This document shows, piece after piece, positions 1 to 20,054 of a stretch of DNA of 28,884 nucleotides. The DNA lies in the NCBI GenBank assembly GCA_015485455.1, contig WFTN01000449.1, forward strand, positions 1 through 28,884, in the 5' to 3' direction. Each line of letters opens with the position of its first letter. Positions within the stretch are counted from its first letter, which is position 1. A program made the position numbers and the translations under genes. Source of the stretch: Planctomycetota bacterium. Lineage in GTDB: Bacteria > Planctomycetota > GCA-002687715 > DRQF01. The notes below the pieces were generated by a model. The model was not told where the DNA came from. It did no database searches and worked only from the letters and a program-made list of their open reading frames with translations.

Positions 1-495
1 ATCCAAGTTGGTGTCAATGCCCACAGAGGCTGCGGGTGGAATCGGATCATTGCACCACTCGGAGATAAACACCTGGCCAGGGAAACCGTTGGTGATTTGA
101 CCACGAATGATTGGTGTGATGCCGCCTGGGCCATAAATCTGAAGGTAGAAACCATCTGCCAACATCATTGTTGCGTCTGCAGCCGTAAACAAGGTCATGG
201 ATGCCTTAGCCGGACTCGCGGCAATGTTGAACAAATTGTAAATGGGACCACTCGTTCCAGGAGCGCCAGTTTCCAAAGTGATCAGCGCTGCGCCAGGGAC
301 ATTGTGATGCACTGTGATTGTAACCAGGTCACCAGCATCCAAAGTCACGAATGCTTTGCCGATGGCGGTAGAAGTTGAGCCTCCGCCGGCCACTTGGGCA
401 GCGTCGAGGTCAAAGGTAAAGGTTGTCTGCTGAGCGAAAACCGGCATGGCAAATAATGCCAAGACCAAAGCCACGAGGCGGCAAGTGCGTTGCAT
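1..495 (-). CDS. Secreted protein of unknown function (C-terminus cut by window edge)
   Basis: An open frame of 165 codons runs from an ATG at 495 off the left edge without a stop. The N-terminus is a clear Sec signal peptide: MQRTCR, then a hydrophobic core LVALVLALFAMPVFA, with likely cleavage after VFA before QQTT. The mature part is rich in Ala, Gly and Thr, with alternating hydrophobic residues that suggest beta structure (for example FTFDLDAAQVAGG and GKAFVTLDAGDLVTITV). I see no catalytic motif. A Shine-Dalgarno-like GGAG lies about 9 nt upstream of the ATG. The gene follows the JAMM gene on the same strand with a gap of 110 bp. An exported surface or extracellular protein is the only safe call, and the family is not recognised. 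Confidence 0.75.
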   Translation of the reverse strand, partial: MQRTCRLVALVLALFAMPVFAQQTTFTFDLDAAQVAGGGSTSTAIGKAFVTLDAGDLVTITVHHNVPGAALITLETGAPGTSGPIYNLFNIAASPAKASMTLFTAADATMMLADGFYLQIYGPGGITPIIRGQITNGFPGQVFISEWCNDPIPPAASVGIDTNLD

Positions 496-605
496 GGTCG
501 AAATCTCCAGGATGTGCGAATGAAGTCGGAGGCATGTTCCATGGAAGGCCATGACATACCCGATAGAGTATCTTGCCAAAGGTGGACGACCTTTCAATCA
601 CTGGG

Positions 606-1076
606 TTAATACCCATGCAAAAATTCACCACTTACACCGGAAATCCCCGTTAAAACTGGCGTAAACACTCCTTTTCTCAGTTGCCAGCTACGGATTTCTT
701 CGCCGTCCCGTTCTTCTAAGCCACAAATCACATAGACCCAGCTACATCCCGCACCCCAAGAGTCCCGGGCATGGCGCAAATCCGTGGTGGAAGGGGCAGA
801 ACGCCCCTGAGGATGAGAATGAAACACGCCCAAGATTTCCTTTTGACAAACCAAGGCTCGCCGCTCTATTTCTCGGTAATCCCTGGGGTCAATGCGAAAT
901 CGGTCGACTTCAGATGCCTCATTGGAAAGTGGTATGAATTGATCCACCGCGGCATCAGCGCTGTTCCGCTTGCCAAGGAGCAATCCACAGGCCTCTTGGG
1001 GGGCGTGAAGCTGACTCATAGACAGCAAGTCCTGGTTCAGTTGCTTAGGAAGAAAGAGCGTCTTGAGCATCTCCAT
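606..1076 (-). CDS. JAMM/MPN (Mov34) zinc metalloprotease, Mec/desampylase-like
   Basis: This 156-aa protein carries the complete JAMM signature. Glu28 lies in PQEACG. His86 and His88 lie in GVFHSHPQG, followed at the expected spacing by Ser96 and Asp99 (HSHPQGRSAPSTTD). Known members hydrolyse the bond after the C-terminal Gly-Gly of ubiquitin-like proteins: archaeal desampylases release SAMPs, and mycobacterial Mec releases cysteine from CysO. The length matches stand-alone bacterial JAMM proteins, so this is probably a cytoplasmic single-domain enzyme. A strong GGAGG lies 10 nt before the ATG and fixes the start. It is divergent from the TPP-enzyme/AOR genes. No CysO, CysM or MoeB gene is adjacent. 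The only ubiquitin-like partner visible in this window is the MoaD domain at 19782-20054. The family call is firm; the substrate is inference. Confidence 0.9.
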   Translation of the reverse strand: MEMLKTLFLPKQLNQDLLSMSQLHAPQEACGLLLGKRNSADAAVDQFIPLSNEASEVDRFRIDPRDYREIERRALVCQKEILGVFHSHPQGRSAPSTTDLRHARDSWGAGCSWVYVICGLEERDGEEIRSWQLRKGVFTPVLTGISGVSGEFLHGY

Positions 1077-1243: not shown

Positions 1244-2887
1244 ATGAAGGCATCAGATCTATTCGTCAAGTGCTTGGAAGCGGAAGGTGTCGAGTACATC
1301 TTTGGTCTGCCCGGGGAAGAAAACGCAGACATCATGATTTCCCTTGAAGAATCGAATATTGATTTCGTTCTTTGTCGCCATGAGCAAGCTGCGGCCTTTA
1401 TGGCCGACGTCTATGGGCGGCTCACTGGACGTGCCGGGGTTTGCCTGGGCACCTTGGGCCCAGGTGCAACCAACCTCATCACAGGAGTTGCTGACGGTAA
1501 CATGGACCGTGCCCCCATGGTCGTCCTCACCGGGCAGGCAGACACCAAACGCCTACATAAAGAATCCCACCAAAACATGGACGTGGTTGCCATGTTCAAG
1601 CCCGTGACGAAATGGAACTTCAGCATCGTCCACCGGACCAACATCCCTGAAGTCGTCCGCAAGGCGTTTAAGGTGTCCCAAGCAGAAAAGCCCGGTGCCT
1701 GCCACATCGAGCTCCCCGAAGACATCGCCAAGCTTGAGCTCGACATGGAGCCCATGATTCCCAGAAAAGTCCGTCGTCCAGGGGCAGACCACAAAGCCGT
1801 GGCCCAGGCCATGGAATTGCTGAAAGCCGCCAAACACCCCATTGTCTTGGCAGGAAACGGTTCTCTGAGGAAACGAGCAGTGGCCCAACTTCGAGAATTC
1901 GCTAAGAAAAGCGGCATTGGCGTCGTCAGCACCTTCATGGGAAAAGGTGTGATCCCCCGGGACGATCCTCACTGCCTATTCACCATGGGGTTACAGTCCA
2001 GAGACCACATTAGCTGTGAAATGGAGAAAGCCGACCTTATCATGGCTGTGGGCTACGATCTGGTGGAATACCATCCTCAATTTTGGAATAGCGGCCGGGA
2101 CAAGAAAATCATCCATATCGACTTCGAATCAGCAGAAGTGGAAGCAGCCTACAATGTGGATGTCGAAATCGTCGCGGACATCGCCGATTCCTTGTGGAAC
2201 TTGAATGACATTCTCCCCTCGGAGCCCCTCTTTGACATCAGCAAGATGGCACCTTTGCGGGAGGCGATGCTCAAAGACCTCAATGAGTTCGCCAATGACA
2301 ACACAGAAGGTGTCATCAAACCCCAAAAGGCACTCTACGACGTCCGCGAAGTCATGGGCCCGGACGATATCCTGCTTTCGGATGTGGGTGCTCACAAAAT
2401 GTGGATCGGACGCTATTATCAATGCGACGAGCCCAATACCTGCCTTATCTCCAACGGATTCTGCACCATGGGATTCGCTCTTCCTGGGGCTATGGCCGCC
2501 AAGACCGTCTTCCCAGACCGCAAAGTCCTCTGCATTAACGGCGACGCTGGGGTCCTGATGAACATCCAAGACTTGGAAACTGCCGCCAGACGTAAACTGA
2601 ACATCGTGGTCATGGTGTGGGAAGATCACCACTATGGGCTCATCAAGTGGAAGCAAGAAAACACCTTTGGCCGCCATTCTGAGCTCAATTTCACCAACCC
2701 AGATTGGGTGAAGCTGGCAGAATCCTTCGGCTGCTGGGGGGCTCGGGTCGAGAATTCTCGCGACCTCAAATCGACTTTAGAAGAGGCATTCACGAAAGAC
2801 GGTCCGGCGGTTATTGTGATGCCTGTCGACTACAGCGAAAACAGCAAACTGACGGAGAAACTGGGTTCGATCACCTGCAAGCTCTGA
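1244..2887 (+). CDS. Thiamine-diphosphate-dependent enzyme, acetolactate synthase (AlsS/IlvB)-like
   Basis: This 547-aa protein has the three-domain layout of TPP-dependent 2-oxo acid enzymes. The N-terminal PYR domain contains the catalytic Glu47 in LCRHEQAAAFMA and the GPGATNLITG loop. The central domain runs from about 185 to 325. The C-terminal PP domain has GDAG at 433-436, beginning the metal-diphosphate motif, and ends it with VWEDHHYGLIKWKQ at 458-471. The sequence is closest in style to catabolic acetolactate synthase (RHEQ, TKRLHKESHQ, FKPVTKW). Catalytic Glu47 argues against glyoxylate carboligase, which lacks it. The metal-ligand Asn of the usual motif is replaced by Glu460. No regulatory small subunit is nearby, as for AlsS-type enzymes. 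AGGAGA lies 7 nt before the ATG. AOR follows after 137 bp. The true reaction could be acetolactate formation or decarboxylation of another 2-oxo acid. Confidence 0.85.
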   Translation: MKASDLFVKCLEAEGVEYIFGLPGEENADIMISLEESNIDFVLCRHEQAAAFMADVYGRLTGRAGVCLGTLGPGATNLITGVADGNMDRAPMVVLTGQADTKRLHKESHQNMDVVAMFKPVTKWNFSIVHRTNIPEVVRKAFKVSQAEKPGACHIELPEDIAKLELDMEPMIPRKVRRPGADHKAVAQAMELLKAAKHPIVLAGNGSLRKRAVAQLREFAKKSGIGVVSTFMGKGVIPRDDPHCLFTMGLQSRDHISCEMEKADLIMAVGYDLVEYHPQFWNSGRDKKIIHIDFESAEVEAAYNVDVEIVADIADSLWNLNDILPSEPLFDISKMAPLREAMLKDLNEFANDNTEGVIKPQKALYDVREVMGPDDILLSDVGAHKMWIGRYYQCDEPNTCLISNGFCTMGFALPGAMAAKTVFPDRKVLCINGDAGVLMNIQDLETAARRKLNIVVMVWEDHHYGLIKWKQENTFGRHSELNFTNPDWVKLAESFGCWGARVENSRDLKSTLEEAFTKDGPAVIVMPVDYSENSKLTEKLGSITCKL

Positions 2888-3024: not shown

Positions 3025-5658
3025 ATGACTGAGATCATTTTCAAGATCACGGAAGCCGGTCAACCGAGCCGCGAAGAGCGCATTAGGGTGGGTATGAAAA
3101 TTGGCCGCGACCCTCGTTGCGACATTGTCATCATGGATCCCAACTCATCCGGCCGCCATGCCCAAATCGTTGCCGAAGGCGAAGGCGTTGCCATTCAAGA
3201 CTTGGGGAGCTCCAACAAGACTCGTATCGAAGATGGCCCTGCCCTCTCGAAGGGAGAACAGCACCGCTTAGGCCATGGCCTCAAATTGATGCTTGGCAAG
3301 TGTGCCATTGAAGTCATCATGAAGCCCTCCGCCAAGAACGCGAAAACGGAAAAAGCAGCTGCTCCCAGGGGCACAAAAACCGAACCTCAACCCATTCACC
3401 CTTATGGAGAAGCTGCAGCCCAAACGCAGACTCCAATTGACGAAGCCAAAGACGACGCAACCCAGCTTTCCAAACCAGAATCCGTCACACCGCAACAACC
3501 GAAACCAGAATCCGTCACACCGGCCCCCCTGGCCCCAAAGGTGCCCGACGAAAGTGTCACCGAGGCACAAGAGTCCCCGGTAAGCGATGCCCCCCAACCC
3601 GTCAAAGAAAAAACGACGGAAGCACAGCAGACAATCCCATCGGCCCCAGAAAAAGTAGCAGCGACGGAAGAACCCACAGAGGCTCAAAAGGTCGTTGTCC
3701 CTCCTAAGCCCCAAGCGCCGGACGAACCGGCGACGGAAAAGACAGAAACTCCCAAGGCCGATGAAGCCTCAGAAAAACCAGCTCCGAAAGCGAAGAAAGC
3801 AAGTCTCCCTGAAATCCCCCCCATGAAAGCCGGGACCAAGGAGCCGAAGGAATTTACCGTCAACCGCTACGAGATTGACCTTTCGACCTATACCGTCAAA
3901 CACATCCCCTTCCAATGTGAAGATTTAGAAGACGTTTTGGGAGGTGCTGCTCGGGGCTTCAAGATCTTGGAGAACTACGACGTTGACGATGCTTATGCTC
4001 CGGAGGCCCCATTAGTCCTGAACTTGGGGTGTCTAAGCGGTAGCCAATTCATGACCGCCTTACGCACCTACTTCCATGCTTATTCGCCACTCAAATCTTC
4101 ATTGGAAAACAAACCCAGCGCCATGTGGACAGCGGGGTCCGGCAAATTCGGTACCAAGCTGCGATCCCTGGGAATCGACGAAGTCATTTTCAAAGGTCGC
4201 GCAGTGATGCCGGTCTACCTACATATTCATTTGGAAGACGGAGCCACAGAACCCACCTTCACATTCGAAAATGGCAGACACCTTCAGGACAAACCTGCCA
4301 ACGAGAAGATCCAACACCTCTACAGCAAATACCCAGAAGGTCAGTTCGCCGTGGTCGGGCCCGCTGGTGAAAACTACGACAGCGTGAATTATGCGGCCAT
4401 TGCTCTTTCGACCATGAACCAACTGCGTAGCGGAGACATGAAAAGTCGTTTCTGTGGACGTGGGGGCATCGGCGGGGTCATGGGATCAAAGAACCTCTTG
4501 GGCATCGTGGCCGATGTCAAAGACCCAAAGAAAGAAAAAGTCGATGGTCTTAAAGAGATGAACCAATGGGTGGCCAGGGGCGAAGGTAGCCGTCGGTTCC
4601 GCGACAAGAAAAAAGGCGATGGTGGCGGGGGTACTTGGGCCAACATGATTGCCTTGGATCCTCTCAATGCCATGCCCGAATACAACTTCAACCCCACAGG
4701 CACAGAGGTCTCGCGGCAGTTGTGGCGGGAAGAGGTCGAAAAAGAAGGCAAGTATCTGATCAAAGATGAAGCCTGCTACGCCTGTGGAATCGCTTGTCAC
4801 AAGAACATGTACACCAACGAAGACGGCAAGAAAGGCAAATACCACGCCAAATTTGACTACGAACCTCTCAACCTGCTCTCGTCGAACATCGGCATCTACG
4901 ACATTGGGGAAGCAGCTGTATTAGTGGAGTTGGTCGATGACCTGTGCATGGATTCCATCTCTATTGGTGTCACTTTGGCCTATGCCATGGAATACAACAA
5001 ACGCCGCAAGGATGCTGAACTTTCCTCGATCCTTCCTGATTACATCGAATACGGCAACTTCGAAGGCACCAAGCGGGCCATCGAAGAAATCGGGCGAGGG
5101 AAATTGCCTGTTCTAGGGCAGGGGACCAAGCGCTTGTCTGAAGCCTTGGGGGAAACTGACTATGCCATGCATTGCAAAGGCATGGAGTTCCCAGCCTACA
5201 TGCCCCACGTCAATCCCGGCTATCCTTGGGCTTTGGCCGGTGGCCATATGTCCATGAAGACTTATTTGCTCTACGTTTTCGAAAAAGAGTCCGGCATGGA
5301 TTACTGGGTGGATGCGATAACCAAGCGGGGCCCCATGATCATGCGCGACGACTTAATCGGCGTTTGCAAGTTCGCTGCCATGTGCGACGAGCACATGACT
5401 ATGGCCTTAGGTGCCCTCTCTGACCTCAAAATAACCGAAGAAGAATTGCAGCGCGTTGTCATGCGCACCTTCTTGCGAGGCTATCGTTTGGAGAAGAAAC
5501 AAGGCTTCACGGACTTGGACTACGCCATGCCAGCAGACGCCCTAAAGAAACAAGAGCACATGAAAATGGAGCACTTCAACACTCCCGAGTTCTTTGCAGA
5601 GTTACAAGGCAAGGTGACAGAAACCCTCGACAAAATGCTCATCGAAGAAGGCATCTAA
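3025..5658 (+). CDS. FHA domain fused to tungsten/molybdenum aldehyde:ferredoxin oxidoreductase (AOR)
   Basis: This 877-aa protein has three parts. Residues 1-100 are a forkhead-associated domain with the phospho-threonine-binding residues in place: IGR at 26-28, SSGRH at 41-45, and DLGSSNKT at 59-66. Residues 101-265 are a low-complexity Pro/Glu/Thr/Lys linker with a repeated KPESVTP. Residues 276-877 are a full-length AOR: GRGGIGGVMGSKN at 478-490 for pterin binding, and [4Fe-4S] ligands Cys584, Cys587 and Cys591 (CYACGIAC) with the fourth, Cys781, in IGVCKF. AORs oxidise aldehydes to carboxylic acids, passing electrons to ferredoxin. The segment normally reading like YDPR before the glycine-rich helix is YMPHVNPGY here, so substrate choice may differ. 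AAGGAG six bases upstream fixes the start. The fused FHA domain suggests kinase-dependent recruitment, which is inference. Confidence 0.92.
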   Translation: MTEIIFKITEAGQPSREERIRVGMKIGRDPRCDIVIMDPNSSGRHAQIVAEGEGVAIQDLGSSNKTRIEDGPALSKGEQHRLGHGLKLMLGKCAIEVIMKPSAKNAKTEKAAAPRGTKTEPQPIHPYGEAAAQTQTPIDEAKDDATQLSKPESVTPQQPKPESVTPAPLAPKVPDESVTEAQESPVSDAPQPVKEKTTEAQQTIPSAPEKVAATEEPTEAQKVVVPPKPQAPDEPATEKTETPKADEASEKPAPKAKKASLPEIPPMKAGTKEPKEFTVNRYEIDLSTYTVKHIPFQCEDLEDVLGGAARGFKILENYDVDDAYAPEAPLVLNLGCLSGSQFMTALRTYFHAYSPLKSSLENKPSAMWTAGSGKFGTKLRSLGIDEVIFKGRAVMPVYLHIHLEDGATEPTFTFENGRHLQDKPANEKIQHLYSKYPEGQFAVVGPAGENYDSVNYAAIALSTMNQLRSGDMKSRFCGRGGIGGVMGSKNLLGIVADVKDPKKEKVDGLKEMNQWVARGEGSRRFRDKKKGDGGGGTWANMIALDPLNAMPEYNFNPTGTEVSRQLWREEVEKEGKYLIKDEACYACGIACHKNMYTNEDGKKGKYHAKFDYEPLNLLSSNIGIYDIGEAAVLVELVDDLCMDSISIGVTLAYAMEYNKRRKDAELSSILPDYIEYGNFEGTKRAIEEIGRGKLPVLGQGTKRLSEALGETDYAMHCKGMEFPAYMPHVNPGYPWALAGGHMSMKTYLLYVFEKESGMDYWVDAITKRGPMIMRDDLIGVCKFAAMCDEHMTMALGALSDLKITEEELQRVVMRTFLRGYRLEKKQGFTDLDYAMPADALKKQEHMKMEHFNTPEFFAELQGKVTETLDKMLIEEGI
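3472..3522 (+). repeat. 30-bp-period direct repeat inside the FHA-AOR linker
   Basis: A 21-base block encoding KPESVTP (starting AAACCAGAATCC) occurs at 3472-3492 and again, identical, at 3502-3522. The period is 30 bp, or ten codons. It lies within the disordered linker and looks like a recent in-frame duplication. Confidence 0.8.
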
Positions 5659-8193: not shown

Positions 8194-11100
8194 CTACTGA
8201 ACAACAGTTGTTGTCTGGCCTGGCCGCAGCAAGATCTTGTGTGTTCTTATGATGCCGAACTGAAACCCGGCTGGACTGATCTTCAACTCGAACCGCCCCG
8301 GACTAAGATTGTCCAACGTCACCTTCTTGTCAGCCGGAACTTTATAGATTCGTTTTTGGAAGGGTGCCTCAAGAGCCCGCAAGATAAGGGTCACTTTGCG
8401 CCCGGGCAGCACATGTTCAGGAGGATCGATGCTGAGTGTGCTGCCCTCCGTGGGCACTGGCCGTTTCAAAATTTCACCGGGAAGAAGTCGACGGCGCCCC
8501 AAAAATGCAACCGGCCCTTCTCCCGTGTCTAACCAGATATCCTGTTCTTCTTCAGGAATGTTCCCGGCAACGAGCTTATCGGCGAAGATCTGCAATGGGA
8601 GGCTAATGGTCTCTTCCGGGGTAGCCACACTGCGCAAGAACAGGCGACTTTTCTTGAGTTTCAAGACCCGAGGAGGCACGTCCTCAATTGCAACCTGAAC
8701 CATAGGAGCCAATACCATTCTTAGTTTCACAGATCCTGCTCCTTGGGGGATCTCCAGAAAATCGGCGCCGGAGTCGAGTTGGCAAAGGGGATGGTAAGGG
8801 CGAATACGATAGAACTCTCTACCCGGAAGACGAAAATGGTAGTTGCCGTTGTCATCCTGCTTCAAGGAGACATTCCAAGGTGTTTCCCTATTCAAAAGTT
8901 CAATCTTGAGGTCTTCACGACTCACTTGTTCTGGCAGATCAAGAATGACTGGCAGATTGCGGCACTCGGTGAGATCGAGGGTCATGCTTCTGTCGTTCGC
9001 ACCAGGCACGATCACAAACTCAGGACCTATGCAGCCACTTTGGGCATCAAAAACCCGATGACGTCCCGGGGCCAGTTCGGACCAGCGATATTGATGTTCG
9101 CCTATGCGCAGTGCTCCACCCCGCCCCACACGACGCCAGATGCCTCGCTTAGGTACCCACTGAGCAATCGCTGGTTCATAGAGCCCGTCATCTGGTTCCT
9201 GAACCGTGAGAACAGCGCTGCTCAGCCGCTTGAGTGACAACTCCCCTTTCAAGAGGCCAGTCTGGGTCAAGTCGAGCAGCACCTGATTGGCACCGTACTG
9301 GCTCGTCACGACTCCTACTGTGCATCGCTTCGACCCCGAGTCCGGCCAAACGTGAAAACGAATCAAACCGGCATCATCCTGGGTCTGGAGATCTGAACGT
9401 AAGGCTCCCCGGACTGCAAGCCGATAGTCAGCAGGCAGTCCGGGACGTCCGTCAATAGTGAATTGTAGCTCAACTTGACGGGGCGAGCGGAGAGTGACGA
9501 CCTTCGTTTCTTCGCCGAGCTTTGCCGTTCCGAGAGAGAGATGATTCATCAACCAAGAATCAGGACGGCCAGCAAAAAGGTAAACCTCATCCGTGGCAAA
9601 GGGGCCAAGCCTCCCACAACCCAAAGAATCAGTCCTGACATGGCGAATAGCCTTATGGGGCTGATCGCTTGTGGCCGTCAACAAGACGCCAGGCTGTGGC
9701 TTTCCACGTTCATCCAAGACCCTCACTTCGAGGAAATGCTGCTCACTGAATGAAAGAGAGCGATCTCGAATCGCCTGGGCATCAACACGAGCAACGCGAC
9801 CGTCGGCGGAGAGAATCAGGAGACTTTCGTCCAGATCCTGGAGCCCCTCAAGGACCACCTGGTTATCGAATAAAAGAGCGCGTACCCCAATGAGGGAATC
9901 CGTATTCAACAGTTCGAGAGGAGGAAGTGGTCCAGAGCCTTTCAAGCTGAAGCGAATCAAATTGCTCATGGACCAACCGGGATTCAGGTCCCATGTCTCA
10001 GCACCACCCGGTATCTCGGCTACGTAGGGTACAAAGGGCGAGCGATGGGCAAGCAACTTCAGAAACCTATTCTTAGGGAGCCCCTTCAAGGTCAAAGAAC
10101 CTGGGCGGGCGACATCAACGATAGGGTTCTTCCATGGCCACGGGAGTTCCATGTTATCGATGCCCCGAGAAACGAAGAAACTCATAGCCAAGCGGCAAGG
10201 CAGCCTATGTTTTGCACCACGGACAGGCGTGATATTGACCTTCAGCACTCTGCCCTCAGTGAGAATAACTGATCGTTGAAGAGAAGCTCCCCCGTCAAGG
10301 CTGAAGGAAAGTTCTCCCACAAGCCCAGTTCCCTTGCTGCGGCACAGCATAAGATAGTCACCCGGAATCAGCCCACCGAGGCTAAGGCGGCCATCCCTGT
10401 TTGTCTTGTGTATCCCCAAAAACACGTTCTGCCGCATGGTCATCTCCATTTCGACAATGGGGATTCCCAGGGCATAGAGGGCCACTTCTGCCGACTCGCT
10501 AACCCCAGCAAGATTCCTGGTGAAGATATCAATCTCAGCCGCAGGTCTGAGCGCCATGGTGAATGGGTGAGGTTGCTGAATCGTCGGCTGTACCGGGAGC
10601 AGAGCTCGAATAGCGGCCATGCTGCCATCCTCCGACGATGCCCACAGACCAGGCAAGCGTCTCGGCCAACTGGAGGTACTGCCAGTGAACCAACCCTTTG
10701 GATCGACGGCCAATCTTGTGCTGTCCGTGCCGCAAAATGCCCGCAGCACGACGGTTGAGCCTCCTGATTCGGGAAGACCCGAAACACGTCCCTTGAAATT
10801 GCGTTGTTCTCGAGCGGGCCGTGGCCAGAAAGAAACGGTGGTGGTTCCTGGGGAGACCAAAGTCGGATCGGGGATGGGAGGCTGATCAGCTGTTCTGGAG
10901 ACTCGAGTTCCTGCGGTGCTGTTTTGGGCCACAGGAAGTTCAAGGTCTGAGTCCCCGGCCTCACGGAGAAAAGTCCACAGGAGTACACTGGATACAATCA
11001 CCGCCACAGATGCCAATGACTTGAAGGATAACCAGGGTCGTGGCTCGGGCAGAGAAAGACCCAGCAGAAGCCCCAGGGAGCGCTGCCATTCCTGGCGATT

Positions 11101-11595
11101 TTCGCCGTACTTGCGATCCATGATACGGCGCATGGAAGTCAAGCCCCGTTGGAGGCGGCTTTGCACCGTTGTCACGGGAACACCCAGGCGCTTGGCGATG
11201 TTGCGAGGAGGGAGGTCTTCAAAGTAGCGAAGCAAAATAACTTCCCGTTGATTGGAAGGTAACTCCGAAACCGCTTCGGTTACTTTCTCAAGAATAGACT
11301 CACGGGCCACGAGGTCGATTGTTGCTGGAGCTCCCTCCGACGCGGCTACGCGTTGTTCCCGAGCAACACGTCGCGTTGTGTCGCGACTTTGCCGCCTCGC
11401 CAGATTGCCAGTGACCGTGCGAAGCCAGGAACGAATACGCGAAAAGTCAGACGGAGGAGATTGTAGAGCGGTGAGCCAAGCCTGCTGGGCAATGTCGTCA
11501 GCTGCATTTTCATCAAAGACAAGTCGGCGAGCTAAGTTTCGCACAAAGCGCGCGTGATCTCGAATAAGATCAACATTGTCATGGGACATGTTCAT
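8194..11595 (-). CDS. ECF-type sigma-70 factor fused to a transmembrane helix and a large extracytoplasmic Ig-like region
   Basis: From the ATG at 11595 the protein has 1133 residues. Residues 8-75 form sigma region 2 (HARFVRNLARRLVFDENAADD, then QQAWLTAL). Residues 105-160 form region 4 with the helix-turn-helix LPSNQREVILLRYFEDLPP and NIAKRLGVPVTTVQSRLQRG. A hydrophobic helix at about 192-210 (SLASVAVIVSSVLLWTFL) should cross the membrane, placing the remaining roughly 920 residues outside the cytoplasm. That part is beta-rich and resembles serial carboxypeptidase-regulatory/Ig-like domains (for example RLSLGGLIPGDYLML and KVTLDNLSPGRFELKISPAG). Sigma factors with C-terminal extensions are known from Planctomycetota. 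The reading frame stays open to 11853, but that crosses a terminator and the upstream gene. GAGG six bases before 11595 supports this start; ATG 11589 is the alternative. Confidence 0.85.
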   Translation of the reverse strand: MNMSHDNVDLIRDHARFVRNLARRLVFDENAADDIAQQAWLTALQSPPSDFSRIRSWLRTVTGNLARRQSRDTTRRVAREQRVAASEGAPATIDLVARESILEKVTEAVSELPSNQREVILLRYFEDLPPRNIAKRLGVPVTTVQSRLQRGLTSMRRIMDRKYGENRQEWQRSLGLLLGLSLPEPRPWLSFKSLASVAVIVSSVLLWTFLREAGDSDLELPVAQNSTAGTRVSRTADQPPIPDPTLVSPGTTTVSFWPRPAREQRNFKGRVSGLPESGGSTVVLRAFCGTDSTRLAVDPKGWFTGSTSSWPRRLPGLWASSEDGSMAAIRALLPVQPTIQQPHPFTMALRPAAEIDIFTRNLAGVSESAEVALYALGIPIVEMEMTMRQNVFLGIHKTNRDGRLSLGGLIPGDYLMLCRSKGTGLVGELSFSLDGGASLQRSVILTEGRVLKVNITPVRGAKHRLPCRLAMSFFVSRGIDNMELPWPWKNPIVDVARPGSLTLKGLPKNRFLKLLAHRSPFVPYVAEIPGGAETWDLNPGWSMSNLIRFSLKGSGPLPPLELLNTDSLIGVRALLFDNQVVLEGLQDLDESLLILSADGRVARVDAQAIRDRSLSFSEQHFLEVRVLDERGKPQPGVLLTATSDQPHKAIRHVRTDSLGCGRLGPFATDEVYLFAGRPDSWLMNHLSLGTAKLGEETKVVTLRSPRQVELQFTIDGRPGLPADYRLAVRGALRSDLQTQDDAGLIRFHVWPDSGSKRCTVGVVTSQYGANQVLLDLTQTGLLKGELSLKRLSSAVLTVQEPDDGLYEPAIAQWVPKRGIWRRVGRGGALRIGEHQYRWSELAPGRHRVFDAQSGCIGPEFVIVPGANDRSMTLDLTECRNLPVILDLPEQVSREDLKIELLNRETPWNVSLKQDDNGNYHFRLPGREFYRIRPYHPLCQLDSGADFLEIPQGAGSVKLRMVLAPMVQVAIEDVPPRVLKLKKSRLFLRSVATPEETISLPLQIFADKLVAGNIPEEEQDIWLDTGEGPVAFLGRRRLLPGEILKRPVPTEGSTLSIDPPEHVLPGRKVTLILRALEAPFQKRIYKVPADKKVTLDNLSPGRFELKISPAGFQFGIIRTHKILLRPGQTTTVVQ

Positions 11596-11611
11596 GCCTA
11601 GCCTCACGAAG

Positions 11612-11645
11612 AAAAACGACGCATCGGAGACTATCCGATGCGTCG
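11612..11645 (-). terminator. Rho-independent terminator after the secreted propeller-like gene
   Basis: On the minus strand a perfect 12-bp stem (CGACGCATCGGA with its complement, loop TAGTC, 11617-11645) is followed directly by TTTTT (11612-11616). It lies 24 bp after the stop of the 11669-13249 gene and just before the sigma-fusion start at 11595. It therefore separates the two transcripts and argues against the longer sigma ORF. The sigma gene must have its promoter very close or be read by leak-through. Confidence 0.85.
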
Positions 11646-11668
11646 ATGAGTTCAAAACACAATCGAAA

Positions 11669-13249
11669 TCAACGCCAAATCGGGTTCTTGAGATTGGCGC
11701 CGCTGACATAACCAGAACCACCAAGCAGGGGCACAGTGAATTGGTGGGACATCGTCTTGGCATCGAAGAATCTGAGGCGCGGTGATGATCCGCTGAGGGT
11801 TGTGATGGCCACCATGGTCCCCTCTGGGTTGACAGCGCAGAACCACCCGGCATTCAAACTTGTCCCAGACGCTGGGGTCACAGACCAAAAATTAGGATTC
11901 TGCACATCAAAATCGATCCGTGCCGCCCAACCATTCCCCCCAAAACCTGAAACCACGAAAAAATCTGAATCTCCGAATCGCGGGCTGGACAAACATGAGG
12001 CCGCCGAGCCCAGAATAACCGGTGGGGAAGATGACGGCCCCATGTTTTGGATCCCAGGGGCTGAAAGATCATGGTCGAACCAGGCCCCGGTAGATTGGGA
12101 ATAACGGGCGATTTGTGCGAGACCAAAATTGAGACCCTGAAGACTGAAGATGAGTTGGTCTCCATCCAGGGATGTTGTCACAGCAGTTGCTCCCGCGCCG
12201 CCGCCAAATGGACCACCTGCTGCTCCCGGTGGGGTGATGGTAGAAATGTTCTGGAGGAATGTCCCACTGGTGGGATCCATGTCGAAGATCTCGATGTCGC
12301 CACTGAATATTTCTGGCGCGACAATTTTCAAGTCTGACGTCAGGTGCCAGATGCCAACGCTGCCACCCAACGCTGTCGTCGGAGCAGAATAGAGAACAAT
12401 GCCATAACTCAGGCTGTTCTCGTTGACATCAATGCCAACAAATTCAAGACCTGAGCCCCCTCCGAGATCGGCAACGCACCAGAGAATTCCATTCAACTCG
12501 TCAATCGCCAGACCGTAAGAATTCGTTCCTGGCGCGAAGGTCATGAGAGTCGACCAACTCGGAGGGTTGACCGACAAGTCGGCGTGACGAATAGCTGGAG
12601 TTATGGAGGAATTTATGTAGAGATCGAGTCCGTCAGTAGTGAAGACAGCGCCGTCACAGTTGTCGCCGACAGAATTGTTCTGAGATTTGACCGCAGCGGT
12701 CTGGGGATCAACCAGCCAGGCTGGGTCTGAGGACCCACTTAGGGCACTGCCAACGAAGACCTCCGGGGGCATGGTCAAATAGAGAATGAGACCGGGGCTC
12801 ATGGCGGCACCTCCCACAGCAGCACTGTCGAAGACCAAAGATTGGCAAAAGAACGGCACACCTGCGAGAGAAGGATTGACTCCAAAAGAATCAAGTGGAG
12901 CCGGAAAGTCAATGTAACCATCTCCTGCTACACCGGGTGTGCCGCCCAGACTCAGATAGGAGACGCTAAAAAGATTGTTGACGTCAACGTAAAAAGGAAG
13001 TCCGCCGAACAGCGTCGTGTTGGAAGGAGTTGGCGAGACCAGGAGGTATCCAGTTCCTGCACCGATAGCCTGATCGATCTTGATGCTAAAGTTGGCGTTG
13101 CCCATCCAGGCTTGGCCGCAGGAGATGCGTGGCGTCAGGCCTCCCGATCCGGGATGACCGACACCATAGTTATATTGGGCCATCAGGCTGCCGCCGAGGA
13201 CAAGGATCATGGCATGGTATAGCCCCAACTGGATCATTCTGCGGGTCAT
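11669..13249 (-). CDS. Secreted protein with N-terminal planctomycete-type beta module and propeller-like repeats
   Basis: This 526-aa protein starts with a signal peptide (MTRRM, then a hydrophobic LGLYHAMILVLGGSLMA, cleavage likely before QYNYG). Residues 25-160 form a Gly-rich beta module beginning YGVGHPGSGGLTPRISCG and ending AMSPGLILYL. It is recognisably related to the C-terminal module of the FG-GAP protein at 14734-16422. The rest contains blocks such as DGLDLYINSSI, NSYGLAIDELNGILWCVADLGG and DGDQLIFSLQGLN, which look like blades of a beta-propeller (SMP-30/WD40 style). I see no enzyme motif. GGAG about 9 bp before the ATG supports the start, and a strong terminator follows the stop. 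The role is probably extracellular or cell-surface. It might be linked to the adjacent sigma factor, but nothing proves that. Confidence 0.75.
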   Translation of the reverse strand: MTRRMIQLGLYHAMILVLGGSLMAQYNYGVGHPGSGGLTPRISCGQAWMGNANFSIKIDQAIGAGTGYLLVSPTPSNTTLFGGLPFYVDVNNLFSVSYLSLGGTPGVAGDGYIDFPAPLDSFGVNPSLAGVPFFCQSLVFDSAAVGGAAMSPGLILYLTMPPEVFVGSALSGSSDPAWLVDPQTAAVKSQNNSVGDNCDGAVFTTDGLDLYINSSITPAIRHADLSVNPPSWSTLMTFAPGTNSYGLAIDELNGILWCVADLGGGSGLEFVGIDVNENSLSYGIVLYSAPTTALGGSVGIWHLTSDLKIVAPEIFSGDIEIFDMDPTSGTFLQNISTITPPGAAGGPFGGGAGATAVTTSLDGDQLIFSLQGLNFGLAQIARYSQSTGAWFDHDLSAPGIQNMGPSSSPPVILGSAASCLSSPRFGDSDFFVVSGFGGNGWAARIDFDVQNPNFWSVTPASGTSLNAGWFCAVNPEGTMVAITTLSGSSPRLRFFDAKTMSHQFTVPLLGGSGYVSGANLKNPIWR

Positions 13250-16543: not shown

Positions 16544-18529
16544 TCAGATGAGATGGTCATCGCACATCATCTTATCTGACGCTGTGCATAGTCCCATGCT
16601 TCTCAGGGCCTCCTTGCAGACTTCGTCGTTCAACAATCTTTCCAGAGCCAGGATGGCTTCGCTCTTCTTATTCTTGGCATCGACTATGAGGTCGAATCTT
16701 TCCGTTTGCACGAAGACGAAACCAAGTCCTTGGTCTTTGGCTAGGATGTCGAGAGTCATGCCCCAATCTCCGCGACCTTGACGAACTCCGGCGGCAACGC
16801 CGTGGTGGCTCTTTGATTCGCTGTGAAAACCTGGGGGTTCATGCCCCTGGAGCAATCGGTCAATGAGGACCCGTGTCCCGCTCCCGACGTTACGGTTCAC
16901 CATGCGAAGATCAGGGTTACTCAAGATTTCTTCGGTGATCTCCGCCAACGTTTTGCCTTCAAAGCGGGCATCACCCAAGCGAAAAACGATACCTTGCCTT
17001 CTTCCATATCCCCCCAATATCTGAGCGCCCTCGGGGAGAAAATCAACGTTGTAAAGCCCTGTCTCACCGTTCAATAAGTGAGAGCCACAAACATCACCTT
17101 CCCCCCGGCTGCGGGCACGCAATCCGGCCAGGGAACCCACCAAGACATTCTTCACGCGAAAACCCATCCGGGCCAAACGGCCCAGAAGATAGTCCATGCC
17201 AACACAATGACTGCCAATGGCTACCAAGTCCGCAGGCTTAGGACTTGCGCCAATGAGTTGAACGATCAGGTCTTCCCCTTCATCCACCCGTTCTTGGTGC
17301 TTGGGAATGCGAATGAAACCATCCGCTCGAGAAAACGTCGAGACACTTCCAGAACCGGCACCCAAGGGATAGGCACTAAGACCATCCTGACCACGGACCA
17401 AATCCACTAACAGGAATTCAGTCCGCCCAGCCACGGACCTCATTGTCATAGGCAATCGAGCTTGAACGACCCTCTGTTCATCGCCAGAACGCCCCGTCAA
17501 GCGAAACAAGATGGGCGTTATGAATTCGTGGAAAGTAAAAATGGCTGACGTGGGAAACCCAGGAAGAATAGCGACAGGCTTGGAGGCTATTTGCGCTACA
17601 CAAATTGGCTTTCCGGGTTTCAGAGCCACACCATGAACAATCACACCCTGAGAATCGGGAAGTTCCTCGCCAAGCTTGTTTATGACGGCGTGATTGAGGT
17701 CGCCTTTACCTTTTGATGTCCCACCTGAAAGAATCACCAAGTCAACAGGAGAATCGGCAGCGAAAAGAGGTCGAAGTTTCTCTTCGAGGATCACCACGTC
17801 ATCGGGGCAAATACCCAAGAAAAGCGGTTCTCCTCCCAGCTCACGGACAGCGTCGCAAATGACGCGGCTATTGGAATCATAGATTTCGCCCACCTTCAAA
17901 GACGTTCCCGGTGCCTTCACCTCATCGCCAGTAGACAACACTGCAACTTGGGGTAGGCGCCAAACTTCAACTTCGTCCACTCCCACCGCAGCCAAGAGCG
18001 CCGTCTCCCGCGAGCCTAACTTGGTCCCGGCATAGAGGACAATCTCCCCCCGCCCTATGTCAGAGCCAGCACCGGTCACATTGCTTCCGGGGGTCAGGGC
18101 ACGAAAGACGTCAATCGTGCTCTTCTCGGCACCAGGGGCACTGTCTTCCACCATCAAGACCGCATCGGCTCCCCGTGGCAGCACCCCCCCCGTCGCAATC
18201 GGAATAGCGCAGTGGCGGCGCAAGACTTGGGGGGATTCTTCGTCGACCTGACCGGCGGAAATGGCATCTTCTTCTTGGACAGTGAGTTGCTTGGGCTCCC
18301 TTTCTTCCGCTCCATAGCTGTCCATCGCGCGTATAGCAAAACCGTCCATGTTGCTGCGATCAAACCCCGGAACATCCACTTGGGCGCAGACGTCATTCGC
18401 CAAGGTCCGGCCCCATGACTGATGAAGCAAACAAGATTCGGAAGTGGGTGCCAAATGTCCAAAGGCCAAATCCAAGAGTTCGTGGGCTTTCGTATCGTCC
18501 ACAACGTTGAGGAATTGCTTCTGTTTCAT
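16544..18529 (-). CDS. moeA: MoeA molybdopterin molybdotransferase fused to a C-terminal PBP-like domain
   Basis: From ATG 18529 the protein has 661 residues. Residues 1-430 are a complete MoeA: VPGFDRSNMDGFAI at 53-66, VLPRGADAVLMVED at 116-129, STGDEV at 199-204, SGGTSKGKGD at 268-277, and KPGKP at 304-308 followed by LPGFPTSA. MoeA inserts molybdate or tungstate into adenylated molybdopterin. Residues 434-650 form a type-2 periplasmic-binding-protein-like domain (YLLGRLARMGFRV, then GLRARSRGEGDVCGSHLL and NVGSGTRVLIDRLL), which may sense or bind the metal oxyanion. The domain is cytoplasmic, with no signal peptide. The frame stays open to 18682, but earlier starts overlap the preceding gene; ATG 18568 (20-bp overlap) is the alternative. 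It is probably co-transcribed with the MoaD-MoeA gene. Confidence 0.88.
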   Translation of the reverse strand: MKQKQFLNVVDDTKAHELLDLAFGHLAPTSESCLLHQSWGRTLANDVCAQVDVPGFDRSNMDGFAIRAMDSYGAEEREPKQLTVQEEDAISAGQVDEESPQVLRRHCAIPIATGGVLPRGADAVLMVEDSAPGAEKSTIDVFRALTPGSNVTGAGSDIGRGEIVLYAGTKLGSRETALLAAVGVDEVEVWRLPQVAVLSTGDEVKAPGTSLKVGEIYDSNSRVICDAVRELGGEPLFLGICPDDVVILEEKLRPLFAADSPVDLVILSGGTSKGKGDLNHAVINKLGEELPDSQGVIVHGVALKPGKPICVAQIASKPVAILPGFPTSAIFTFHEFITPILFRLTGRSGDEQRVVQARLPMTMRSVAGRTEFLLVDLVRGQDGLSAYPLGAGSGSVSTFSRADGFIRIPKHQERVDEGEDLIVQLIGASPKPADLVAIGSHCVGMDYLLGRLARMGFRVKNVLVGSLAGLRARSRGEGDVCGSHLLNGETGLYNVDFLPEGAQILGGYGRRQGIVFRLGDARFEGKTLAEITEEILSNPDLRMVNRNVGSGTRVLIDRLLQGHEPPGFHSESKSHHGVAAGVRQGRGDWGMTLDILAKDQGLGFVFVQTERFDLIVDAKNKKSEAILALERLLNDEVCKEALRSMGLCTASDKMMCDDHLI

Positions 18530-18548: not shown

Positions 18549-20054
18549 TCAAGCTCTGAACCGGTCATAGAGATAGACAACAACCTTCTGTCCTTCGTCA
18601 GCACCCTCTGAATCTTCAGAAACCAAGACAAAACCATCCGCTTGAGTTGTTGATGACAACAAGGAGGCCCCAGACAAAGCAATGGGCGCTACAAGTCCCT
18701 CGGAATCAACAGCCACCCGCACATAGTCATGGCGTCCAATCTGAGAAGAAATTCGACGGCTCAAAACCAGAGACTTGGATTCATAAGGCCAACCTGAGTC
18801 TCGACCCGACAAAGCCCGAAGCGCAGGACCGGCGAAATGGTCATAGGCGCAAAGGCAAGAGACAGGATTACCAGGGAGAAGGAAAATAGGAAGGCCACCA
18901 ATGACTCCCAAACCAGTGGGAGCGCTGGGTCGCATCGCCACGCCGTGGATTGGCAAGCTGCCCAGCTCAGCAACCAGAAGAGGAAGGAAGTCCTCTCGGC
19001 CGACGGATGAGCCCCCGGCACAAAGCAAAACATCGCAGGACAACGACGACAGGAATGCCCGAATCTCGTCTGGATCATCAGGCAAGCGGTGAAGCCCTTC
19101 GAGAACTCCTCCGTCCCGGTCGACCAAAGCAGCCAGCATAGGAGAATTACTGTCCACGATGAAGCCTGGTCGTGGAGTCTCACCTGGAGCCAAGAGTTCG
19201 TTACCCGTCACCAGGATGGAGACCCGCGGTTGAGAAAACACTCTCGCTTCCCCTTGCCCGATACTCGCCAATAGCCCAACATCCTGGGGCCTCAAACGCC
19301 GTCCTTTTCTAAGCACTTCTTGCCCTTGAGCAATGTCTTCTGCCCGCTTGCCAACGTTCTTCTTTGGGCTGACATCACCATAGGCCTCCAAGATATTGCC
19401 CTTGGCCTGACAATCTTCAGCCATGAGCACGGCATTGGCCCCAGGAGGCATGGGTGCCCCCGTCATGATGCGGCAGGCCTGCCCTCGTTGGACTTGGGGC
19501 AAGTCTTGGCAACCAGGCATGGAGTCACCGCAGATCGTCAGAGTGATAGGAGCATAAGGCGTGGCACCAAAAGTGTCTTCCGCGACCACCGCAAAACCGT
19601 CCATGGCCGAGCGATCAAAGGGCGGCACATCCACGGTACTTGTAACGCTACTCCCCAAGACACGCCCGGCCAATGCGCTCAATGGAGCCCTCTCAAACTG
19701 AGGTGTCACAGAATCCAGGGCCCAATCCATGGCATGTGCCACAGAGCTGCGATCGTGAAACCCCTTCATGCGGACATCACTCCCCCCTTCCACGGCGGGA
19801 ATGATGTCGATCTCATCGTCTTCAGCAAGAGCAATATCCCGCCAAGCGTCGCGGGGGACCTCATCATCGCCCACCATGATGATGAGATAGGGATGAATCT
19901 CGTCATTCTCGTTGATGGTGCGAATCCTGAATGCAGGGAGCGCTTGGAACAAATCATCCAAAGCCTCACCGACAGTCGTTCCAGAAACGATCACCGAGGG
20001 CTCGTTGTTTGAATAGCGTCGCAGAGGAGTTGGAATGTGAATTCTGATTGTCAT
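18549..20054 (-). CDS. MoaD (ubiquitin-like sulfur carrier) fused to MoeA molybdotransferase
   Basis: This 501-aa protein opens with a MoaD/ThiS-like beta-grasp domain (residues 1-91: MTIRIHIPTPLRRY, then GTTVGEALDDLF and LAEDDEIDIIPAVEGG). In free MoaD the final Gly-Gly is the C-terminus and is adenylated and thiocarboxylated to feed sulfur to molybdopterin synthase. Here Gly90-Gly91 continue straight into SDVRMKGFHD and a complete MoeA (VPPFDRSAMDGFAV at 143-156, PPGANAVLMAEDC, VTGNEL, LLPGNPVSCLCAYD). The usual KPGKP motif is replaced by MRPSAPTGLG. The Gly-Gly codons are a GGGGGG run (19782-19787). GGGGAG stands 10 bases before an in-frame ATG (19769, Met96), so free MoeA could also be initiated internally. 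The second MoeA gene follows on the same strand within about 20 bp. Confidence 0.88.
   Translation of the reverse strand: MTIRIHIPTPLRRYSNNEPSVIVSGTTVGEALDDLFQALPAFRIRTINENDEIHPYLIIMVGDDEVPRDAWRDIALAEDDEIDIIPAVEGGSDVRMKGFHDRSSVAHAMDWALDSVTPQFERAPLSALAGRVLGSSVTSTVDVPPFDRSAMDGFAVVAEDTFGATPYAPITLTICGDSMPGCQDLPQVQRGQACRIMTGAPMPPGANAVLMAEDCQAKGNILEAYGDVSPKKNVGKRAEDIAQGQEVLRKGRRLRPQDVGLLASIGQGEARVFSQPRVSILVTGNELLAPGETPRPGFIVDSNSPMLAALVDRDGGVLEGLHRLPDDPDEIRAFLSSLSCDVLLCAGGSSVGREDFLPLLVAELGSLPIHGVAMRPSAPTGLGVIGGLPIFLLPGNPVSCLCAYDHFAGPALRALSGRDSGWPYESKSLVLSRRISSQIGRHDYVRVAVDSEGLVAPIALSGASLLSSTTQADGFVLVSEDSEGADEGQKVVVYLYDRFRA

Follow-up and report, generated by a model that had tools for sequence, protein, structure and literature searches.

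The locus and its fusion gene

The window analysed here, by which we mean the whole stretch of 28,884 nucleotides (contig WFTN01000449.1 of assembly GCA_015485455.1), belongs to a Planctomycetota genome of 4.13 Mb in 614 contigs that is 77% complete (G000 in what follows). On its minus strand it contains an uninterrupted open frame of 501 amino acids (18549-20054) in which a MoaD domain, residues 1-91, is joined to MoeA. The features of the window that concern this gene are as follows.

1..597, minus strand: CHRD-like gene, immediately downstream of the JAMM gene, its frame open at the window edge (Pfam CHRD)
606..1076, minus strand: JAMM/MPN+ metalloprotease, candidate processing enzyme (Prok-JAB; complete catalytic motif)
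1244..2887, plus strand: acetolactate synthase large subunit, between the JAMM and AFOR genes (NCBIfam PRK08322, 771 bits)
3025..5658, plus strand: fusion of an FHA domain with an aldehyde ferredoxin oxidoreductase, AFOR (Pfam)
16544..18529, minus strand: second MoeA, with a C-terminal PBP domain, directly downstream of the fusion (NCBIfam PRK14498, PBP_like)
18549..19778, minus strand: MoeA part of the fusion, residues 93-501 (MoeA_N, MoCF_biosynth, MoeA_C; Foldseek)
19779..19787, minus strand: junction Gly90-Gly91 / Ser92, with a predicted cleavage site after Gly91 (Gly-Gly conservation)
19782..20054, minus strand: MoaD/ThiS-family sulfur-carrier domain, residues 1-91, ending in PAVEGG (Pfam ThiS; alignment)

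Every domain of the fusion exceeds its curated Pfam cut-off. The MoaD part is a ThiS-family beta-grasp domain (ThiS, residues 6-91, 34.5 bits against a cut-off of 22.5), and the last position of that profile, 76 of 76, falls on Gly91. The remainder contains all three domains of a MoeA insertase, namely MoeA_N (104-266, 150 bits), MoCF_biosynth (280-413, 85.4 bits) and MoeA_C (429-495, 44.7 bits), and Foldseek matches it best to MoeA structures, among them 1uz5 and 1g8l. The closest solved chains to the MoaD domain are 4n6e_B, a ThiS/MoaD family protein, and 3dwg_C (cfp10A), which we take to be CysO, while the best of the NCBIfam carrier models is SAMP1 at 38.6 bits, below its cut-off of 60.

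The junction reads PAVE-Gly90-Gly91 and then Ser92-DVRMKGF. Since most closely related unfused MoeA frames have a DVRMxGF motif near their N-terminus, the two parts are barely separated, and in the fusion a whole MoaD is followed by an almost entire MoeA. The original prediction of a MoaD carrier buried in a MoaD-MoeA polyprotein, with Gly90-Gly91 running on into MoeA, is thus borne out by the uninterrupted frame; the interval it gave, 19769-20054, corresponds to MoaD plus about four codons. The Gly-Gly pair that a sulfur carrier of this kind presents at its free C-terminus is internal here and would become terminal only if the protein were cut. The fusion was modelled with AlphaFold2 from an alignment of seven sequences (mean pLDDT 80.7); the model falls below a pLDDT of 50 at residues 88-100, as it does in several MoeA loops, so that it argues only weakly for an exposed tether at the junction.

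Three ThiS-family domains were found in the source genome: the fusion itself, a ThiS followed by ThiG (ThiG 364 bits) on contig C304, and a 95-residue MoaD ending in VSGG directly upstream of MoaE (MoaE 117 bits) on contig C58. The fused MoaD is therefore an additional copy, and the ordinary moaD-moaE pair rules out the fusion as a replacement for moaD. A stand-alone moaD had been expected to be absent, which is not so in this genome; a normal moaD combined with an uncleaved fusion had been named as evidence against processing, and the first half of that combination is present on C58.

The complete JAMM enzyme reported at 606-1076 is real. Its product matches Prok-JAB at 73.3 bits against a cut-off of 25, with the catalytic residues Glu28, His86, His88, Ser96 and Asp99 intact (H86-S-H88-x7-S96-x2-D99), and its AlphaFold2 model resembles PfJAMM1 of Pyrococcus (5ld9/5lda; TM-score 0.89-0.91 by target and 0.75 by query). 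Haloarchaeal desampylase, NF041370, is the best NCBIfam model at 58.5 bits, with its threshold of 130 not reached; judged from these matches the window JAMM is a relative of the haloarchaeal desampylase and not an equivalog of HvJAMM1. It is the sole Prok-JAB gene found in the genome. It lies about 17.5 kb from the fusion, beside the CHRD-like gene (E 1.1e-4, 23.5 bits, just below the cut-off of 24.1), the acetolactate synthase gene and the AFOR gene, and because of this distance and these other neighbours the argument from a shared window is weak in this genome alone.

Conservation of the internal Gly-Gly

A profile search of 392 Planctomycetota genomes found the MoaD-MoeA fusion in at least 8 genomes, which belong to three families (f1, f29 and f53). 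All three members of f1, within a class of 12 genomes, have it (G000, G004 and G005), as do four genomes of f29 (G061, G080, G037 and G157) and one of f53 (G073), where the gene is interrupted by a contig end. For this third lineage, no match other than G073 was found at E 1e-20 among the 12 genomes of its class. Eight fused genes in eight genomes of three families rule out a chance joining or a local assembly error. Outside f1, open frames of at least 300 residues were read at 20 places among the matches listed, and 13 listed matches with frames of 200-290 residues were left out of this reading. Five of the 20 long frames were MoaD-MoeA, eight were MoaD followed by rhodanese and/or ThiF (two of these checked with Pfam and the rest by eye), and the remaining seven had MoaD at the frame end or at most 5 residues from it.

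Gly-Gly occupies the domain junction in all eight fusions and is invariant in the alignment of this MoaD type (10 of 10). The residues behind it diverge at once: S, S, APPR, AHD, SGD or GR precede DVRxxGF, in G080 there are 33 low-complexity residues before the motif, and in G073 the motif is missing, such that the spacing from Gly-Gly to DVRxxGF ranges from 1 to 33 residues in seven of the eight. The free MoaDs of the same type end in Gly-Gly-stop in eight of nine cases. Loss of the Gly-Gly in homologues, which had been put forward as grounds for abandoning the idea of processing, was not seen in any of the eight fusions. The one exception among the free carriers, an AFOR-linked MoaD at locus L117 (L117:89-364), continues with SGLR after Gly-Gly; given this tail, it might also require trimming.

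A tungsten-type neighbourhood

AFORs are a family of tungsten enzymes, and the window contains one at 3025..5658, with Pfam scores of 121 bits for AFOR_N, 139.5 bits for AFOR_C and 50 bits for FHA. The FHA domain, a phosphothreonine-binding module, is N-terminal; the alignments to the AFORs of G005 and G004 cover this N-terminus too, and in the G037 AFOR frame FHA is absent in the Pfam scan. Gene order is conserved in f1, where acetolactate synthase and AFOR are followed, farther on, by MoaD-MoeA and then by MoeA-PBP; the position of acetolactate synthase is common to G004, which has no JAMM there, and to G005, across a contig break. Some 13 kb separate AFOR from the fusion in the window, and some 7 kb in G004. 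Within the class, AFOR occurs only in G000, G004, G005 and G006 (4 of 12 genomes). In the cluster DNA examined it was present in five of the eight fused genomes (G000, G004, G005, G037 and G157) and was not found in G061, G080 and G073.

The second MoeA of the window scores 637 bits against a cut-off of 534 for PRK14498 and 114 bits for PBP_like, and its start probably lies near 18529, to judge from its relatives. This MoeA-PBP gene comes directly after the fusion in seven of the eight fused genomes (G000, G004, G005, G061, G080, G037 and G157); at G073 the corresponding position is beyond the contig end, and in G114, where MoaD and MoeA are separate genes, it follows the split pair. Genes resembling tupABC lie ahead of the fusion in three of the eight (G061, G080 and G037) and ahead of the split genes in G114. 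The binding protein of this set matches Pfam PBP_like_2, its ATPase is of the ABC type, and the remaining frame is of permease size and has no Pfam match; the name tupABC is given to the set from context. No tup match was found in the cluster DNA examined of G157, and in G004 a single binding-protein gene comes after AFOR. A search with Rfam for the molybdenum/tungsten riboswitch returned no match at gathering score in the window or in L051, L053, L091, L005 and L018.

MoaD directly adjoins AFOR only in G006, which has no fusion, and in seven Myxococcota/Delta-type loci. The AFOR gene of G006 has immediately upstream of it a stand-alone MoaD of this type (124 bits, in a search whose profile included this MoaD). 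The Myxococcota/Delta-type loci carry a free MoaD, AFOR, a DVRMxGF-type MoeA and then MoeA-PBP, with the genes close together in six of seven; at L117 some 8 kb lie between AFOR and the MoeA, and tupABC follows. Their AFORs share 59-66% identity with that of G006 and about 22-26% with that of the window. A further frame of the window, 8194-11853, encodes 1219 residues with sigma-70 regions 2 and 4 and a long tail, in which there is a weak carboxypeptidase-regulatory-like match.

These neighbours point to a tungsten role for the fusion cluster, and there is precedent in the literature for several of its components. MoeA-PBP co-occurring with TupA has been proposed to be tungsten-linked (PMC11733289), with the same MoeA-PBP and Tup partners as here and with MoaD unmentioned in the main text of that work. 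A MoeA dedicated to tungsten is known elsewhere (PMC13197769), and in Thermococcus a MoaD-type carrier takes part in tungsten cofactor synthesis, a role shared by several carriers (PMC11323500). A tungsten cofactor role for AFOR-linked MoaD genes was proposed in 2006 (PMC1779556); those are separate MoaD genes beside AFOR, sometimes with MoeA, and the Azoarcus fusion described there joins MoaD to AFOR, no MoaD-MoeA fusion being noted in the available text of that survey.

JAMM linkage to the fused carrier

In the DNA examined, six of the eight fused cases have a JAMM gene within the cluster or next to it, one of them inferred across a contig break, versus none of nine free-MoaD clusters (Fisher p 0.002 with loci treated as independent, although those of one family are not). 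The free set consists of G114, G006 and the seven Myxococcota/Delta-type loci. In f29 the distance between JAMM and fusion is about 2.2 kb in G061, G080 and G037, where the JAMM is divergent from tupA, and about 1.8 kb in G157. In f1 it sits between the CHRD-like and acetolactate synthase genes in G000 and G005, adjoining the CHRD-like gene in the same orientation in both; the linkage in G005 is inferred because two contigs each end in half of acetolactate synthase. The proposed co-occurrence of fusion and JAMM is upheld in part. In G004 the CHRD-like gene adjoins acetolactate synthase with no JAMM between them and there is no JAMM on the whole 43-kb contig. The only non-RadC JAMM of that genome is on another contig and is divergent, with 31% identity over 97 residues. 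At G073 no JAMM was found within the 10.6 kb examined around the fusion, and a Prok-JAB gene of this genome, on a different contig, adjoins another MoaD.

Prok-JAB exceeds its cut-off in all eight fused genomes. Genome-wide presence is uninformative as a test, being positive in 38 of 40 chosen genomes; six of the seven Myxococcota/Delta-type genomes are also above the cut-off, and no Prok-JAB was found in the G006 genome. Across 80 MoeA loci, with the frames around MoeA read in 46 and a profile search only in 34, a JAMM was found at two of three fused loci versus none of 77 without a detected fusion, many of these loci being cut by contig ends.

A profile of the f29-type JAMM was built from the four fused f29 genomes, where it reaches 183-252 bits; among the 392 genomes it matched 39 others, with scores no higher than about 109 bits. 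The f1 and f29 JAMMs group apart in a tree that carries long-branch warnings. The linkage pattern therefore rests on about two lineages, and a single orthologous JAMM behind all fusions is unsupported; it seems that two Planctomycetota lineages each recruited a JAMM of a different subfamily to the vicinity of the fusion.

Eight of the nine free clusters carry an AFOR of the G006 type, a different subfamily from the AFOR of the window, so the JAMM could track AFOR subfamily or lineage, and G114 alone separates these possibilities. This f29 genome (87% complete) has a cluster of tupABC, MoaD, MoeA, MoeA-PBP and AFOR. Its MoaD ends in GAAEGG-stop, exactly after Gly-Gly, and its MoeA is in another frame, with a start ATG that overlaps the MoaD stop by one base. 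No JAMM was found in the 19.9 kb examined, the sole Prok-JAB match in the assembly is RadC (104 bits to RadC), and the f29-type JAMM profile did not find G114 at E 1e-8. A MoeA tree was built from seven fused MoeAs, a single free one, 31 stand-alone rows taken from the 80 loci and an outgroup of two, the incomplete G073 sequence having been removed by a length filter. It places G114 as sister to the fused G157, which has a JAMM, with support of 100/98. Support for f29 as a whole is only 91/57, and f1 is separated from f29 by two Actinomycetota loci that have no fusion (96/85). With this topology and support, the gene may have fused once and been split later, or may have fused more than once. 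G114 is the cleanest case for a JAMM that goes with a fused MoaD.

JAMM genes also accompany other carriers of these bacteria. At the eight loci with MoaD-rhodanese and/or ThiF fusions (L054, L055, L056, L057, L058, L059, L061 and L066), MoaD is immediately preceded by a JAMM, which is no more than about 210 bases away or, at L066, shares its frame. The latter (L066:2-2410, in G213) is an 803-residue frame, starting at a contig edge, that contains JAMM, MoaD ending in AIAGG, rhodanese and ThiF, and thus has protease and presumed carrier substrate on one polypeptide. We set these eight of eight loci aside as independent proof, because JAMMs also adjoin stand-alone carriers (G069, G073 and G134). 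At L015:3889-6989 (G007), genes for a JAB protein, an E2 (UQ_con, 58 bits) and ThiF (146 bits) stand in a row that looks like a bacterial ubiquitin-like conjugation operon.

Proposed mechanism and competing explanations

The analysis revealed a MoaD-MoeA fusion, an invariant Gly-Gly at its junction, a tungsten-type neighbourhood and a JAMM linkage that goes with fused MoaD and includes the comparison with one split gene. From these observations we infer the tungsten role, cleavage of the fusion, that the JAMM is the enzyme which cuts it, and that the MoaD set free is active. We consider the chances slightly better than even that the fusion is a tungsten-cofactor (tungstopterin) module for the AFOR of the cluster, cut after Gly91 and most probably by the cluster JAMM. 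In this model, MoaD and MoeA would be made as one polypeptide, supplying an AFOR-type sulfur carrier and a metal insertase in a 1:1 ratio. One cut, after Gly91, would free the C-terminal glycine of MoaD for adenylation and thiocarboxylation by an E1-like enzyme while leaving MoeA with an almost native start. The JAMM metalloprotease of the cluster would be the most likely scissors, and its cleavage of the fusion after Gly91 seems likely. A stronger version, to which we give somewhat less than an even chance, is that proteolysis gates tungstopterin synthesis, with the cluster JAMM maturing a tungsten-specific MoaD-MoeA polyprotein whose carrier stays uncharged until it is cut.

The alternative that survives best, although we regard it as rather unlikely, keeps the cut after Gly91 and assigns it to another protease, the JAMM having a different task, such as a cysteine/sulfur relay or the removal of MoaD-like modifiers from proteins, or simply following the AFOR lineage. 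The G004 and G073 fusions, with no JAMM nearby in the DNA examined, would fit this explanation, as would the position of the JAMM in G000 and G005, adjoining and co-oriented with the CHRD-like gene; there is also the M. tuberculosis fusion MoaX, whose protease is described as unidentified (PMC4326299). Against it stands f29, where a JAMM lies within about 2.2 kb of the fusion in four of four fused genomes and none was found in the split G114.

It is improbable that the fusion is never cut and that its MoaD is a docking module bringing MoeA to MPT synthase or AFOR, with the ordinary moaD supplying the sulfur. The ordinary moaD-moaE pair is indeed present in the source genome, and since carriers share the tungsten-cofactor role in Thermococcus a free carrier could stand in (PMC11323500). 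However, a docking tail would have no obvious need of a Gly-Gly, and the internal pair is exact in eight of eight fusions, at the very place where eight of nine free relatives end and where the split gene breaks. Least probable, and in our view very much so, is a JAMM that acts as an isopeptidase reversing MoaD/SAMP1-like conjugation in the tungsten pathway with the gene fusion incidental, an explanation that would suit the best models for MoaD (SAMP1, 38.6 bits) and for the JAMM (desampylase, 58.5 bits), both below cut-off, and the activity of HvJAMM1 on conjugates as well as linear fusions (PMC8832034), but that sits poorly with nine of nine free-MoaD clusters lacking a linked JAMM though conjugation would be equally possible there.

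Processing of the MoaD-MoeA fusion by the cluster JAMM would have close parallels. That JAMMs cut linear ubiquitin-like fusions, a principle on which the original prediction drew, is published for MoaD-MoaE in Deinococcus and for SAMP1-MoaE in Haloferax. In Deinococcus radiodurans, the JAMM DR0402, reported to be necessary for activation, cleaves the MoaD-MoaE fusion DR2607 (Yang 2018, as recounted in PMC8832034). As in the window, MoaD is linked there through its terminal glycine to a cofactor-synthesis partner, and DR0402 releases the C-terminal Gly; unlike here, the partner is MoaE, DR2607 is the sole MoaD-MoaE of the cell, and the available text mentions no tungsten cluster. MoaX is likewise a MoaD-MoaE fusion, cut between Gly82 and Ser83 with Gly81 required (PMC4326299), and it shares with the window fusion a Gly/Ser bond at the junction. 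HvJAMM1 cuts SAMP1-MoaE after the C-terminal Gly of the ubiquitin-like domain and so restores MPT-dependent DMSO respiration (PMC4443979); that fusion was expressed ectopically, samp1 and moaE being naturally separate genes in Haloferax, unlike the fusion of the window. In cells, cleavage by HvJAMM1 was undetected for fusions without diglycine (PMC4443979), while earlier work is cited as finding diglycine unnecessary for cutting linear fusions (PMC8832034). Because HvJAMM1 reportedly cuts linear fusions without diglycine, the conservation of Gly-Gly speaks for carrier function more than for a JAMM.

Iyer, Burroughs and Aravind suggested in 2006 that a JAB might cut off fused ThiS/MoaD, and according to the same survey thiamine and Moco/Wco neighbourhoods contain no JAB gene (PMC1779556). 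MoaD-MoaE, MoaD-MoeB and MoaD-MoeBR are listed in a survey of fusions in archaea, with no MoaD-MoeA noted in the portion available (PMC11237513). The claim of novelty originally made for a JAMM that liberates MoaD from MoeA thus has to be narrowed: the principle is published and was suggested in 2006, whereas no report of MoeA as a fused MoaD partner, or of a tungsten setting, was found in the open-licence literature. The known JAMM-processed linear fusions of MoaD have MoaE as partner, unlike the MoeA of the window, and share with it the junction Gly-Gly and a JAMM in the genome.

If our model is correct, JAMM processing of linear sulfur-carrier fusions would reach beyond MoaE to the MoeA metal-insertion step and to tungsten, and would add a JAMM to a pathway in which the 2006 survey reported none (PMC1779556). 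The sister lineages of f29, one fused with a JAMM and the other split without one, provide a clean comparison for asking whether an internal Gly-Gly predicts the processing of ubiquitin-like proteins.
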